Assembly (NCBI GenBank): GCA_024644585.1
Contig: JAHEHM010000002.1
Span: 1-59,011 of the forward strand
Direction of reading: 5' to 3'
Origin: Porticoccaceae bacterium
Lineage (GTDB): Bacteria > Pseudomonadota > Gammaproteobacteria > Pseudomonadales > Porticoccaceae
Length of the DNA stretch: 59,011 nt
Shown here: positions 3,297 through 46,442 of the stretch, in pieces
How the letters are laid out: every line of letters begins with the position of its first letter
How positions within the stretch are numbered: position 1 is the stretch's first letter
Made by a program: the position numbers and the translations under genes
The notes under the pieces: model-generated
Seen by the model: the letters and a program-made list of their open reading frames with translations, nothing else
Told to the model about the DNA's origin: nothing
Databases searched by the model: none

Positions 3297-4205
3297 TTAC
3301 TGATTGAGCAAGAACAGCATCAATGCCTTTTGTGCGTGCAAACGATTTTCTGCCTCATCCCAAACCACAGAAATAGATGTATCTTCTAGCAATTCAGCTG
3401 AAACTTCTTCGCCTCGGTGCGCAGGCAGGCAGTGCATAAAGAGTGCCTTATCTGCAGCCTTGGCCATGAGTGCATGATTGACCTGAAAACCATCAAAATG
3501 CTCTAGCCTAGTAGCCTGTTCAGCTTCTTGCCCCATAGAGGCAAACACATCTGTAGTCACAAGATCAGCATCATTCACCGCTTGCGCAGGATCATTAGTT
3601 AAAACAACGCGATCACCAGCACTCGCCACAATAGTCGCATCGGGTTCATAGCCCACAGGGCAGGCAATGCGCAATTTAAAATCAAATTGCATGGCCGCAT
3701 TGATCCACGAATGACACATATTATTACCATCGCCAATCCAGGCAACCGTTTTACCCTGAATAGATCCGCGATGCTCTACATAGGTCTGCACATCGGCAAG
3801 TAACTGACAGGGATGAAAGCTATCGGTTAACGCATTGATCACTGGCACAGCAGAATGCTTGGCAAAGGTCTCAATTTTGTCATGACCAAAGGTTCTGATC
3901 ATAATAATGTCGGTCATTCTCGAGATCACTCTCGCAGAATCTTCAATCGGTTCGCCGCGACCTAACTGGGTATCAGTTGGCGACAGAAATAGCGCACTTC
4001 CACCTAACTGCGCCATACCGGCTTCAAAGGATACTCGGGTTCTAGTGGATGATTTTTCAAAAATCATCGCCAATACCTTTTGCGCCAATACCGGCTGTTG
4101 GGTGTTTTCACGATGTGCTTTTTTTAACGCAATCGCAGAATCAATCACCTGATTAAGTTCAGCGGGTGAAAGGTCATGTAAGGTAAGAAAATGTCTAACA
4201 GCCAT
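3297..4205 (-). CDS. argF: Ornithine carbamoyltransferase
   Basis: [12 protein letters not shown] carbamoyl-phosphate motif, [11 protein letters not shown] motif. Confidence 0.96.
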
Positions 4206-42063: not shown

Positions 42064-42570
42064 TTAGTCATGTAACTTTACGATACCTTGCATTGAACAG
42101 TTTGCCAATAGACTAGAAATATTTCCACGCTTAGGGATAACTAAATTGGGGTCTAAATCATTGAGTGGTGCTAGAACGAAAGCGCGCTCATGGGCACGTG
42201 GATGGGGCAGGATTAGTTGTTCTGAGTTTTCAATCAGCTGATCAAAAACCAATATATCTAAATCCAGTGTTCTAGCGCCCCAGCGCTCCTTTCTTACTCG
42301 GCCTTGCTGATTTTCAATACTTTGTAGCGCTAGTAATAATTGATGGGCGCTAAGACTTGTTTCGATCTTGATGGCAGCGTTGATATAGTCGGGCTGATCG
42401 CCAGGACCTATGGCCTGAGTCTGGTAAAAGGGAGAGGTTCTAAGTAAGTTAATGGTGGTTTGATTATCGATACTTTGAATAGCATTTAAGAGTTGTTGTT
42501 TTGGGCTTTCAAAAATACCGTTGCGATCATTTCCCAGGTTACTGCCTAGGCCGACAAATGCCACATGCAT
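42064..42570 (-). CDS. folK: 2-amino-4-hydroxy-6-hydroxymethyldihydropteridine pyrophosphokinase
   Basis: VGLGSNLGN; RWGARTLDLDIL. Confidence 0.97.
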   Translation of the reverse strand: MHVAFVGLGSNLGNDRNGIFESPKQQLLNAIQSIDNQTTINLLRTSPFYQTQAIGPGDQPDYINAAIKIETSLSAHQLLLALQSIENQQGRVRKERWGARTLDLDILVFDQLIENSEQLILPHPRAHERAFVLAPLNDLDPNLVIPKRGNISSLLANCSMQGIVKLHD

Positions 42571-43925
42571 TAGTCTGACTGCCTTGGTCGCCGTCTGGGT
42601 CTTCGCCCTTTTGATTGCCCAGCATTTAATTTTTGTACCATCTGTTGACGTGTTTCCTCATCGACATCTTGGTACTTTGTCCACCAGTCGCCAAGGCCGT
42701 CGAGTTGCTCTCCTGTTTGTTCGCGAAGAAGAACGAAATCATAGGCCGCACGGAATCGAGGCTGTTCCATTAGTCGTTTGGCTCGATTGCCACCGCGTTT
42801 TGAAAGAGTTAGCTGCATTGCCCAAATTTCTCGCATCGCCAGGGTAAAGCGTTTTGGAATGGCAGTGATGGGAATTTGATTGCTAATGACCTCACTGGCT
42901 GCTTTGTTAATTGCAGTAGTAGCGGGCTGGCCATGGTTTTGAAGTTCTTGAGCTGTTTTCTGCACAGCTGGCCAGAGCATGGCAGCATAAATAAAAGCTG
43001 GTGTTACACGCTGCTTGTTTTGTATACGCAGATCAGTATTGGTTAGCGCCTGCTTGACCATTGCCAAAGCCGTTGGATGCCCCTGCTCTATAAGACGATT
43101 AGTTTGGGGCACAAGATGGGCGAACAGCTTGTATTCGAGAAGTCTTTCAAATACGTCTAAACCATAGCCACTCATAAACAGTTTAAGTGTCTCATCAAAC
43201 ATTCTCGGCGATGAGACATGCTTGAGCTTAGACCCTAATTTAACCATCGGCTTTGAGCTTTTAGGGTCAATGTCAAAGCCTAACTTGCCGGCAAATCTAG
43301 CCACACGAAGCATTCTGACGGGGTCTTCGCTGTACCTTATCGATGGCGTACCAATAATGCGAATAGTCCGTGATTCAAGATCATCTAAACCATCACAGTA
43401 GTCATGCAGGCAGTTCTTCTCAGTATCATAGTAAAGCGCATTGATAGTTAGATCGCGTCTTGTTGCATCATCAACCAGAGAACCAAATTTATTATCTCTT
43501 GTGAGTAAGCCACTTTCAGTCTGTTGCACTAGGTTAGTATGTTCTGTGTCGTTAGATCTAAACGTAGTAACTTCGATAATATCTCGACCAAATTGAACAT
43601 GCACAATTTGAAAGCGCCGGCCAATAATTCTTGAACGTCGAAATAGTCGTTTAACTTGCTGGGGTGTTGCATTGGTGGCTATATCAAAATCTTTTGGTTT
43701 TAAGCCAAGAAGGATGTCGCGAACGCAACCCCCAACCACGTAGGCTTCAAAATTTCTGCTTTGAAGTACACGCACAACTTCACGAGCATTTTTACATATA
43801 TCCGCGGGATCGAGACTATGCTCATTTGATGTCAGGACGCACTGGTCGTCTGTCGCTTTTCGCGATGATGATCGATTAAAAAAATGGGTTAGACGTTTAA
43901 GCACATTAATAGCCGTTGTGTACAA
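42570..43925 (-). CDS. pcnB: Poly(A) polymerase I (non-AUG start)
   Basis: AYVVGGCVRDILLGLKPKDFDIATNATPQQVKRLFRRSRIIGRRF; basic C-terminus; first codon of ORF is TTG. Confidence 0.95.
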   Translation of the reverse strand: MYTTAINVLKRLTHFFNRSSSRKATDDQCVLTSNEHSLDPADICKNAREVVRVLQSRNFEAYVVGGCVRDILLGLKPKDFDIATNATPQQVKRLFRRSRIIGRRFQIVHVQFGRDIIEVTTFRSNDTEHTNLVQQTESGLLTRDNKFGSLVDDATRRDLTINALYYDTEKNCLHDYCDGLDDLESRTIRIIGTPSIRYSEDPVRMLRVARFAGKLGFDIDPKSSKPMVKLGSKLKHVSSPRMFDETLKLFMSGYGLDVFERLLEYKLFAHLVPQTNRLIEQGHPTALAMVKQALTNTDLRIQNKQRVTPAFIYAAMLWPAVQKTAQELQNHGQPATTAINKAASEVISNQIPITAIPKRFTLAMREIWAMQLTLSKRGGNRAKRLMEQPRFRAAYDFVLLREQTGEQLDGLGDWWTKYQDVDEETRQQMVQKLNAGQSKGRRPRRRPRQSD

Positions 43926-44020: not shown

Positions 44021-44048
44021 AAAAAAGGGTTGCCTCTCGGCAGCCCCC
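44021..44048 (-). terminator. Intrinsic terminator (minus strand)
   Basis: Minus strand GGGCTGCC GAGA GGCAACCC TTTTTT (one mismatch in stem). Confidence 0.8.
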
Positions 44049-44160
44049 CTCAATTGTTCGTCAGCAAATGCTTTAGAACACTTTGCAATCCATCCGGTTT
44101 TTATTGTTATTTATTTTTATTATTATTGAAGTCTCCCTCAACTGGTATCTATCTAACCAA
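44021..44160 (-). ncRNA. Candidate CrcZ-position sRNA with AAN-repeat tract
   Basis: Minus strand AATAATAATAAAAATAAATAACAATAAAAACC (44096-44130) then terminator; lies between cbrB-like gene and pcnB. The 5' end is a guess. Confidence 0.45.
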
Positions 44161-44227
44161 AATTAGTTTGTGGTAACAACTAGGATAAATGCCAGTTAAC
44201 GCAAAAATAGCCCAAAACACCTCAAAA

Positions 44228-44244
44228 TGTTACTTTTTGTAACA
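44228..44244. promoter_or_regulatory. Perfect inverted repeat, candidate regulator-binding site
   Basis: TGTTAC-TTTTT-GTAACA, plus an additional GTAACA half-site at 44173-44178. Confidence 0.5.
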
Positions 44245-44278: not shown

Positions 44279-45484
44279 TTACTTCTGTTTATCAAGCTTT
44301 AATTTGATTCTACGTTGCCATAATGACTTGCGACTGATCCCCAAATTTTTGGCCAGAGCCGTTTCAGACATATGCTCCTGATTTTGAGTAACAAAGCGAA
44401 TAAAGTAATCCTCTAAGGATAAATTGGGTAGGTCTTTTTGCCTGTCAGTGCTCGTTTTTTGCGATTTATTTTTTTGGGGTAGACTGAGCGAAGGGGTATC
44501 AATAATACCCTCAGAATTGGTAAAAATAAGCGCCTGATGAATAGACTCTTTGAGCTGAATGACATTTCCAGGCCAGTCGCAGGCATTTAAGGCTTTGATA
44601 GCATTGCCTGTTAGGCTGATATCACGTTGTATTTTTTTTGCGTATTGGCTTAAAAAATGTCTGGCCAGCAATGAGATATCTGATTTCCGTTCTCTTAATG
44701 GAGGGACATTGATCGTAATGCTACTGAGTTTATATAAGAGATCTTCGCGAAATGAATTTAGTGCTGTCGCGGTGGTTAGATCTTTTTCTGTAGAGGCAAT
44801 TATGCGTATTTTTTTGTTACTAAGACTCAAGGCAACCATTTTTTGAAGTGACGGATCCAGTTCACAGATATTGTGAAAATAAAGTGTTTTCTGGTTGTCC
44901 GTATCAAGTTCTTTATTGAGCTGCTGTCGGGTTACCGACGCGCAATCTATCATTATGAGTGGGAAGCAAGAAAATGGGCTGGTTTGATGTATCTCTCTGA
45001 CTATTTTGCGTTTCCCTGAACCAGGTTCTCCGATAATTAGTATTGGCGTAACACGTTTTGCCATCTGTTTTATTTTACCGGCTATTTTTATAATTTGAGG
45101 ACTATTGCCTATTAGCGGAATAGGGTTGTTTGTCTGGAGTATTTTGCTAATGACCTGCTGCAGTAACTCAAACTCCATCGGCTGAGCTAAATAATCTGCC
45201 GCTCCTCTTTGAATGACTTCAATGGCCTGTCTTAGATCAGGATTATGAGATAGGAATACCACGGATTTTTTGGCGCAGCGATTTATTATTGTGTTGGTGT
45301 TAATTTTTGGTATATCAATATCACAGAGAACAGCATCAAAAGTCGTGGTATTAAAAGCTTCAAGTGCCAATTTGTTAGAGTTAACCTGAGTAACATCTAA
45401 CTTAAGTTTCTTGAATAGGCTAAGCAAAGCTTTCTCATTGAAAAGCTGTTCAGTGATGATTAATATTTTTGATGTTGATGCCAT
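44279..45484 (-). CDS. Divergent NtrC-family regulator in cbrB position, GAFTGA-less
   Basis: REC-like N-terminus (FDAVLCDIDIPK), AAA+ with Walker A GEPGSGKRK, degenerate Walker B TLYFHNI, FREDLLYKL arginine region, Fis-type HTH (ETALAKNLGISRKSLWQRRIKL). Confidence 0.85.
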   Translation of the reverse strand: MASTSKILIITEQLFNEKALLSLFKKLKLDVTQVNSNKLALEAFNTTTFDAVLCDIDIPKINTNTIINRCAKKSVVFLSHNPDLRQAIEVIQRGAADYLAQPMEFELLQQVISKILQTNNPIPLIGNSPQIIKIAGKIKQMAKRVTPILIIGEPGSGKRKIVREIHQTSPFSCFPLIMIDCASVTRQQLNKELDTDNQKTLYFHNICELDPSLQKMVALSLSNKKIRIIASTEKDLTTATALNSFREDLLYKLSSITINVPPLRERKSDISLLARHFLSQYAKKIQRDISLTGNAIKALNACDWPGNVIQLKESIHQALIFTNSEGIIDTPSLSLPQKNKSQKTSTDRQKDLPNLSLEDYFIRFVTQNQEHMSETALAKNLGISRKSLWQRRIKLKLDKQK

Positions 45485-45527: not shown

Positions 45528-46442
45528 CTAGAGATTTGCGGGTGCAGCAATACCGATTTCAAGAGGAGGAATACTGGAGAGATCCCAGTGGGCAGTTGCC
45601 CAGGTTAAAATTTCCCCAGTTGATGACTGGCGGAGTTCTATGGGTGGGTTTTGTTTAAGCCAGTCCAGCGCTAACCATAGCTGTTCCGATTCATGGCCAA
45701 CGCTGAGTGCTTTGGCAAAATGCTGTTTGCTGAGTTTTTGTCCCAGTGAATTTAGCGCAAGGGGTATATGCAAATAGTTGGGGGTTGGATAATTAAGGCA
45801 TTTTTGTAACAAAATCTGTCTTGGGGTTGAGTCTAAAAGATCAAATCCCCGTACAATTTCAGTTATTCCCTGATGATAATCATCAACCACTACCGCCAAT
45901 TGATATGAAATTAAGCCATCACGCCTTAGCACCACAAAGTCACCTACATCGCTGTTAAGCAACTGATGAAATTCACCCATAACACTGTCAGTAAAGCCAA
46001 GTTTATCGCAATTATGGCCAATAGCTTGCATGCCTCTATTGATTGAAAAGCGACAGGAGGCATCTATTGTGGAAAGATTTTTTTGACTGCACTTGCCGTC
46101 GTAAATTCCGCTTAACTCTGAAATTCGCTGTCGGGTACAGGTGCAGTTATAAACAAGATTTTTGAGTCTTAGGCTTTGTAAAACGTCATGATACTGATCG
46201 ATCTGGTCACTTTGATAGACAACCGAATCATCCCAAGCAAGACCATGCTGCTCTAGCTGTTTAAGAATACCACTGGCAGAGCCTTGAATTTCACGAGGTG
46301 GGTCAAGGTCTTCAATTCTTACCAGCCACTTTCCTTGATTTTTTTTGGCCTGTAGATAACTAGCGACTGCCGCTAGAAGTGAGCCAAAGTGAAGCGGACC
46401 TGTGGGGGAGGGGGCAAAACGACCAACGTAGGAATTTAGCAT
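45528..46442 (-). CDS. gluQ: Glutamyl-Q tRNA(Asp) synthetase
   Basis: GRFAPSPTGPLHFGSLLAAVASYL; truncated GluRS fold, adjacent to dksA. Confidence 0.95.
   Translation of the reverse strand: MLNSYVGRFAPSPTGPLHFGSLLAAVASYLQAKKNQGKWLVRIEDLDPPREIQGSASGILKQLEQHGLAWDDSVVYQSDQIDQYHDVLQSLRLKNLVYNCTCTRQRISELSGIYDGKCSQKNLSTIDASCRFSINRGMQAIGHNCDKLGFTDSVMGEFHQLLNSDVGDFVVLRRDGLISYQLAVVVDDYHQGITEIVRGFDLLDSTPRQILLQKCLNYPTPNYLHIPLALNSLGQKLSKQHFAKALSVGHESEQLWLALDWLKQNPPIELRQSSTGEILTWATAHWDLSSIPPLEIGIAAPANL

Follow-up and report, generated by a model that had tools for sequence, protein, structure and literature searches.

A CbrB orthologue without sigma54-contact loops in a SAR92-clade bacterium appears to have been rewired towards a sigma70-type promoter of a CrcZ-like small RNA

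The DNA analysed here (the window) is a 59,011-nucleotide stretch from a 1.41-Mb, 91% complete assembly of a Porticoccaceae bacterium. It carries the gene order dksA-gluQ-[cbrB]-pcnB-folK-dNK-panB. A preliminary description made from the window sequence had proposed that the intact 401-aa reading frame behind gluQ is a CbrB-type regulator that lost both its sigma54-contacting machinery and its partner kinase CbrA. The reading frame, the gene order and all of the protein motifs that it listed were found again. The position between gluQ(-cbrA) and pcnB is that of the CbrB orthologue group, with synteny in dozens of genomes, and an orthologue with 92% identity comes from a contig whose title reads SAR92 clade bacterium. 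SAR92 bacteria are small ocean bacteria, and CbrB is a master switch for carbon use. The genes and protein domains of the locus are as follows.

45528 to 46442, minus strand: gluQ, upstream neighbour of cbrB; most relatives carry cbrA between the two genes, the window does not
44279 to 45484, minus strand: CbrB orthologue without sigma54-contact loops, 401 aa (including stop codon), from reading frame, domain and alignment evidence and the tree
45131 to 45484, minus strand: receiver domain, aa 1-118, which retains Asp55 but has TEQ in place of the acidic pocket and Q in place of the switch Lys
44699 to 45115, minus strand: shortened AAA+ core, aa 124-262, from Pfam, alignment and model; Walker A is retained, Walker B reads HN, and both L1/GAFTGA and the L2 hairpin are missing
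44890 to 44906, minus strand: junction of the missing L1/GAFTGA, about aa 193-199, from alignment
44444 to 44695, minus strand: AAA+ lid, aa 264-347, from Pfam
44282 to 44419, minus strand: Fis-type HTH, aa 356-401, the region best conserved within the family, from alignment
42570 to 43925, minus strand: pcnB, downstream neighbour of cbrB; the small RNA sits between cbrB and pcnB

The window protein begins its receiver with ILIITEQ, has DYLAQP with Gln in place of the switch Lys, and retains Walker A (GEPGSGK), FREDLLYKL and the C-terminal HTH. Pfam matches were obtained to Response_reg, Sigma54_activ_2 (PF14532, throughout) and the AAA lid. PF00158 matched in two pieces only, one on either side of a gap, with the middle missing. 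Alignment confirmed that the GAFTGA segment is absent and recovered neither an intact loop nor an intact Walker B, where TLFLDE has become TLYFHN. From ...LNKEL to TLYFHN there are about 6 residues rather than the roughly 20 first estimated. A second deletion removes the pre-sensor-I/L2 hairpin between ALSLSNKK and IRIIAST. Since the L1/GAFTGA and L2 hairpin segments are both absent, both sigma54-contact loops are missing. Compared with the sigma54-dependent bEBP class, window CbrB has no GAFTGA loop L1 and has HN in place of the Walker B Asp-Glu. The shortened AAA+ core was nevertheless modelled by AlphaFold as a compact fold (pLDDT about 90), and the nearest structures are NtrX, NtrC1 and other NtrC-family structures.

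The protein is assigned to CbrB by its HTH signature (SLEDYF...SETELAxKLGISRKxLWERR) and by tree and BLAST. As had been anticipated, it branches within CbrB, apart from the two other bEBPs of its genome, which were the only non-CbrB outgroups. It sits on a very long branch, and its HTH, at 59% to a Pseudomonadaceae genome, is more diverged than those of most relatives (0.61-0.72).

The receiver has indeed lost its acidic pocket and switch Lys; the phospho-acceptor Asp55 is still there. At the acidic pair, Asp, Thr/Ser and Lys positions of a phosphorylatable receiver, the window protein has TEQ, D, S and Q. The partner kinase is missing as well. No cbrA was found between gluQ and cbrB or elsewhere in the 91%-complete assembly, and relocation of CbrA within the genome was dismissed on this result. 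The best CbrA match covers a histidine-kinase domain only (32% over about 230 aa). No SSF domain was detected anywhere in the assembly; the Pfam SSF model misses CbrA throughout the group and is hence uninformative as a CbrA test. The genome encodes an intact rpoN and two complete bEBPs, so the change in CbrB is not explained by sigma54 loss, and rpoN loss was excluded as its cause.

Syntenic regions of 82 genomes were placed in a tree, with the window genome as G000. CbrB with GAFTGA (or GSFTGA) is distributed throughout the order, including several further genera of the window's own family. Full-length loop-less CbrBs all fall in one clade, which contains genus g25 and the SAR92 genus g1 together with genus g102, whose sampled CbrB lacks the entire AAA+ domain. 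The sigma54-contact loops are absent from 36/36 full-length SAR92 CbrBs and from G170 of sister genus g25. Walker B is altered in the same 36/36, and in several the Walker A Lys is Arg. GAFTGA loss peculiar to the window genome is thereby ruled out, and the altered Walker B of the window, TLYFHN, is nothing special either. The simplest reading is that the loops were lost in a single event at the root of the g1/g25/g102 clade. In one genome, G183, cbrB seems split by a frame change after GAFTGA, which may be a real frameshift or an assembly error.

Nearly all SAR92 genomes with loop-less CbrB carry a 950-1000-aa CbrA directly upstream. The preliminary description had joined the loss of sigma54 machinery and the loss of CbrA in one story. 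The retention of CbrA by nearly all loop-less relatives separates the two and places sigma54 uncoupling before CbrA loss. The receiver is intact wherever cbrA adjoins, and is degraded only in the CbrA-less genomes G000, G005, G046, G048 and G218. Within the SAR92 genus the acidic pocket and switch Lys were lost only in the window species and G005. As read from these sequences, CbrA loss and receiver pocket decay are later events in the lineage of these two. The outgroup genome G048 has no cbrA; its CbrB keeps GAFTGA and a sigma54 promoter, and its receiver Asp is Glu, as it is in G046.

The AAA+ domain is gone from CbrB in G016/G017/G033, in G006/G019, in G248 (genus g102) and in G142 (genus g24), leaving receiver-HTH proteins of 183-210 aa. 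On the tree these deletions are placed as four separate events. The sisters of G142, G236 and G237, have a full CbrB. G008, G013, G198, G199 and G194 have lost cbrA as well as cbrB from the locus but retain the small RNA. This RNA lies in the cbrB-pcnB spacer, where the following features were recognised.

44150 to 44179, minus strand: sigma70-type small RNA promoter, TTGTTA at 44179-44174 and TAGATA or TTAGAT at about 44156-44150; a weaker match than in relatives
44021 to 44145, minus strand: putative CrcZ-like small RNA of about 125 nt, its 5' end placed by reference to the -10
44126 to 44141, minus strand: 5' hairpin of the small RNA, kept across relatives with varying stem sequence
44098 to 44127, minus strand: single A-rich run of seven overlapping AANAANAA (Hfq distal-face type)
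44021 to 44049, minus strand: intrinsic terminator of the small RNA, with compensatory changes across relatives

The unit consists of a sigma70-type promoter, the 5' hairpin, one AANAANAA run, a GGATGGATTGC block, a hairpin and the terminator, all on the same strand. In SAR92 spacers the promoter is conserved as TTGnnn-16-TAGAAT/TACAAT. The covariance model R1 finds the small RNA once per genome in SAR92 and also matches the syntenic spacers of same-family genomes with full CbrB and sigma54 promoters (E 2e-5 to 5e-4). The window has the A-rich AANAANAA run, the terminator and the cbrB-pcnB location of a CrcZ. Covariance models revealed no significant similarity to Pseudomonas CrcZ, and the Rfam CrcZ model RF01675 gave the window RNA 16.9 bits against a gathering threshold of 95 (E 0.15). 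"CrcZ-like" is therefore a label based on where the RNA lies, on its A-rich run and on the link provided by same-family genomes; it does not imply direct similarity.

Two groups depart from one small RNA per genome. A SAR92 subclade (G001, G022, G031, G191, G192, G197, G200 and G205) has CbrA, loop-less CbrB and a short spacer of 89-166 bp, in which no small RNA was found. R1 located none elsewhere in those genomes, and relocation was rejected. In G233 (genus g100), which has neither CbrA nor CbrB at the locus, two tandem R1 matches in the gluQ-pcnB spacer (L151:3154-3299 and 3479-3627) suggest that the small RNA was duplicated.

The spacers were also searched for sigma54-like elements (TGGCAC-N5-TGC type; score of at least 9 of 12, with GG and GC in place). 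Such a site is present in 26/29 genomes with a GAFTGA-bearing CbrB and in 2/41 with a loop-less or AAA+-less one; one of the two, in G012, is a weak site scoring 9/12. Fisher's test gives p 1e-13, a value that ignores shared ancestry and overstates a contrast that is mostly one evolutionary event. Loop loss and the change of crcZ promoter are best read as a concordant change on one branch. G142 is an exception to this correlation, with a sigma54-type promoter beside its AAA+-less CbrB. An order of events can be read from these distributions, with loop and promoter changing first, followed by loss of the AAA+ domain or of CbrA and the receiver pocket.

Upstream of the small RNA promoter lies a candidate binding site.

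44228 to 44244, no strand assigned: palindrome TGTTAC-N5-GTAACA, putative CbrB site, half-site from PMC6296734

A genome-wide search showed this to be the only TGTTWC-N5-GTAACA match in the 1.41-Mb window assembly, and the spacer palindrome of G005 is likewise the sole one in its own assembly. The half-site is the TGTTAC subsite recognised by P. putida CbrB, where subsites are spaced 12-16 nt apart (PMC6296734). In spacers of genomes with full CbrB, the forward and reverse hexamers occur at varied, mostly wider spacings. Within the loop-less clade the compact form is found in 13 spacers, including those of the window and of G170 in sister genus g25; G002 has one further mismatch. The end of the palindrome is separated from the -35 by 45-46 bp in nine genomes; the distance is 36 bp in G002 and 48 bp in both G000 and G005. 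At least one palindrome is present in 37/40 surveyed genomes with CbrB and in 0/4 without it, these four sharing an ancestor. Most SAR92 genomes have a TGTTAC-N5-GTAACA upstream of genes for a 260-aa DUF3450-type protein and an exbB-like protein, named by sequence resemblance rather than family search, which follow thyA-folA (L171-L200; e.g. L192:1501-1517). In 13/13 promoters measured there, the palindrome ends exactly 46 bp from a TTGATT-type -35. The DUF3450-exbB operon is a likely second target of CbrB.

Because the intact reading frame alone could not distinguish repurposing from decay, as the preliminary description had assumed it could, selection on cbrB was examined. The cbrB genes of the window species and G005 differ by 50 synonymous and 40 replacement changes, against a neutral expectation from site counts of about 20 and 70 (p 7e-12). 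The synonymous excess is seen in receiver, AAA+ and HTH alike, and indicates purifying selection in every domain. The dN/dS is 0.21 for cbrB, 0.16 for gluQ and 0.035 for pcnB. The cbrB gene of the window species evolves faster than its neighbours, yet under constraint. Purifying selection and the intact palindrome of CbrB half-sites beside the gene support the repurposing, rather than the decay, that had been proposed.

We consider it probable that CbrB of this SAR92-clade bacterium was once a sigma54-dependent AAA+ activator and now regulates the small RNA's sigma70-type promoter, and the CbrAB-CrcZ circuit appears to be rewired, not simply broken. This model builds on features read from sequence: the deletions, the change of promoter, the palindrome with its spacing, and the signs of conservation and selection. 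Ancestral CbrB would have bound spaced TGTTAC subsites and used its ATPase ring and GAFTGA loop to open the crcZ sigma54 promoter, yielding an RNA that titrates Hfq. Both sigma54-contact loops were then deleted and ATPase residues decayed, probably in the ancestor shared by SAR92 and its two sister genera. Meanwhile the crcZ promoter became sigma70-type, and the small RNA, if transcribed, would now bind or titrate Hfq through a single site. In its present form CbrB is most likely a dimer that occupies a single compact palindrome, TGTTWC-N5-GTAACA. From there it would modulate transcription by contacting the housekeeping polymerase, with activation likelier than repression. CbrA phosphorylation presumably still sets CbrB activity in most relatives. 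In the window species CbrA is gone and the receiver is probably unable to bind Mg; CbrB would there be constitutive, or governed by protein level or another ligand.

Several observations count against this model. The G022 clade lacks the small RNA, and several SAR92 subclades keep CbrB while the spacer palindrome is absent, so control of the small RNA does not hold throughout. Four close relatives without CbrA and CbrB have kept the small RNA, which can evidently persist without CbrB. The window promoter itself fits the model less well, with its 48-bp spacing and weaker -10. The sigma54 promoter beside the AAA+-less CbrB of G142 and the lack of significant similarity between the small RNA and Pseudomonas CrcZ weigh on the same side.

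We wondered whether CbrB of the window lineage is instead a relic on its way out after the loss of CbrA. The destroyed receiver pocket, the very long branch and the complete loss of cbrB from the sister clade G008/G013/G198/G199 keep this a rival reading. It is unlikely, as the reading frame is intact in two species at 92% identity, the excess of synonymous change extends to each domain, and a perfect palindrome is present in both species and absent from the CbrB-less sisters. There is a still smaller chance that the palindrome belongs to another transcription factor and that it tracks CbrB only as a side effect of genome reduction. The CbrB-less genomes are indeed small (1.2-1.7 Mb) and descend from one ancestor, which makes the co-loss close to a single event. 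The window genome is equally small (1.4 Mb) yet keeps both site and CbrB, the half-site is a known P. putida CbrB subsite, and the site also lies directly behind cbrB in G170 of sister genus g25.

CbrB might also bind the palindrome but repress the small RNA, or have its main effect on other genes, for instance those of the DUF3450-exbB operon. The G022 clade has CbrAB without the small RNA, and its one genome-wide palindrome precedes that operon; in the window a TGTTAC half-site overlaps the -35. The same -35 half-site is found in G008, which has no CbrB, and a palindrome 46 bp upstream of the -35 fits activation better than occlusion. With the spacer site as the sole palindrome in the G000 and G005 assemblies, we regard repression or a main role elsewhere as rather improbable. 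That CbrB still works at sigma54 promoters, for example by joining the ring of another bEBP, is very improbable. The genome does encode rpoN and two complete bEBPs, but both contact loops and Walker B are gone, no sigma54 promoter is left next door, and the AAA+ domain has proved dispensable in four lineages. Regulation from the sigma70-type promoter remains the reading that we favour. We hold more tentatively, at somewhat less than even confidence, the whole scenario: conversion of a global sigma54 AAA+ activator into a sigma70-promoter regulator in steps visible among living relatives, with a fixed 45-46-bp geometry at two unrelated promoters, a two-domain receiver-HTH form in four separate lineages and a small RNA promoter switching sigma factor in parallel.

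The locus resembles CbrAB-CrcZ of Pseudomonas and Azotobacter in gene order, in the CbrA of most relatives, in the receiver-AAA+-HTH architecture, in the TGTTAC half-site and in an A-rich small RNA between cbrB and pcnB. It differs in having no GAFTGA or L2 loop, a dead Walker B, no CbrA in the window species, a sigma70-type promoter instead of a sigma54 promoter and a compact palindrome instead of spaced subsites. Pseudomonas CrcZ, which titrates Hfq, has 407 nt and six A-rich stretches (PMC4063720); the RNA described here has about 125 nt and one. PgtA (NCBIfam NF047793, 414 aa) was the sole NCBIfam model listed that aligned end to end (residues 4-400), which points to the same short architecture; at 112 bits against a curated cut-off of 650 it represents another system with other synteny.

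The kind of change seen in CbrB has precedent, as GAFTGA-less regulators of the bEBP family act at sigma70 promoters, namely NtrC of Caulobacter and Rhodobacter capsulatus and VspR of Vibrio (PMC10274813). CbrB would share with them the lack of the loop and the action at a sigma70 promoter. Those proteins belong to another orthologue group and have retained their AAA+ domain; in NtrC, binding or hydrolysis of ATP is important. In contrast, the CbrB ATPase has decayed, to the point of deletion in some lineages, and the change of the target promoter can be traced alongside. As far as the literature consulted shows, the concordant promoter switch and the repeated AAA+ deletion are new.

Intermediate forms seldom survive, which makes the joint departure of a regulator and its promoter from sigma54 difficult to study. 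In this one family, full, loop-less, AAA+-less and absent CbrB coexist beside the same small RNA, which makes the order of events readable and testable. A literature search for SAR92 with CbrAB returned nothing, and a 2022 review describes CbrAB as unique to Pseudomonadaceae (PMC8871633). Contrary to that description, many families of the order were observed to have CbrA and full CbrB together with a sigma54 promoter that precedes AANAANAA clusters (L077-L090, L108-L114). This suggests that the carbon switch occurs widely in the order and extends to abundant marine bacteria.
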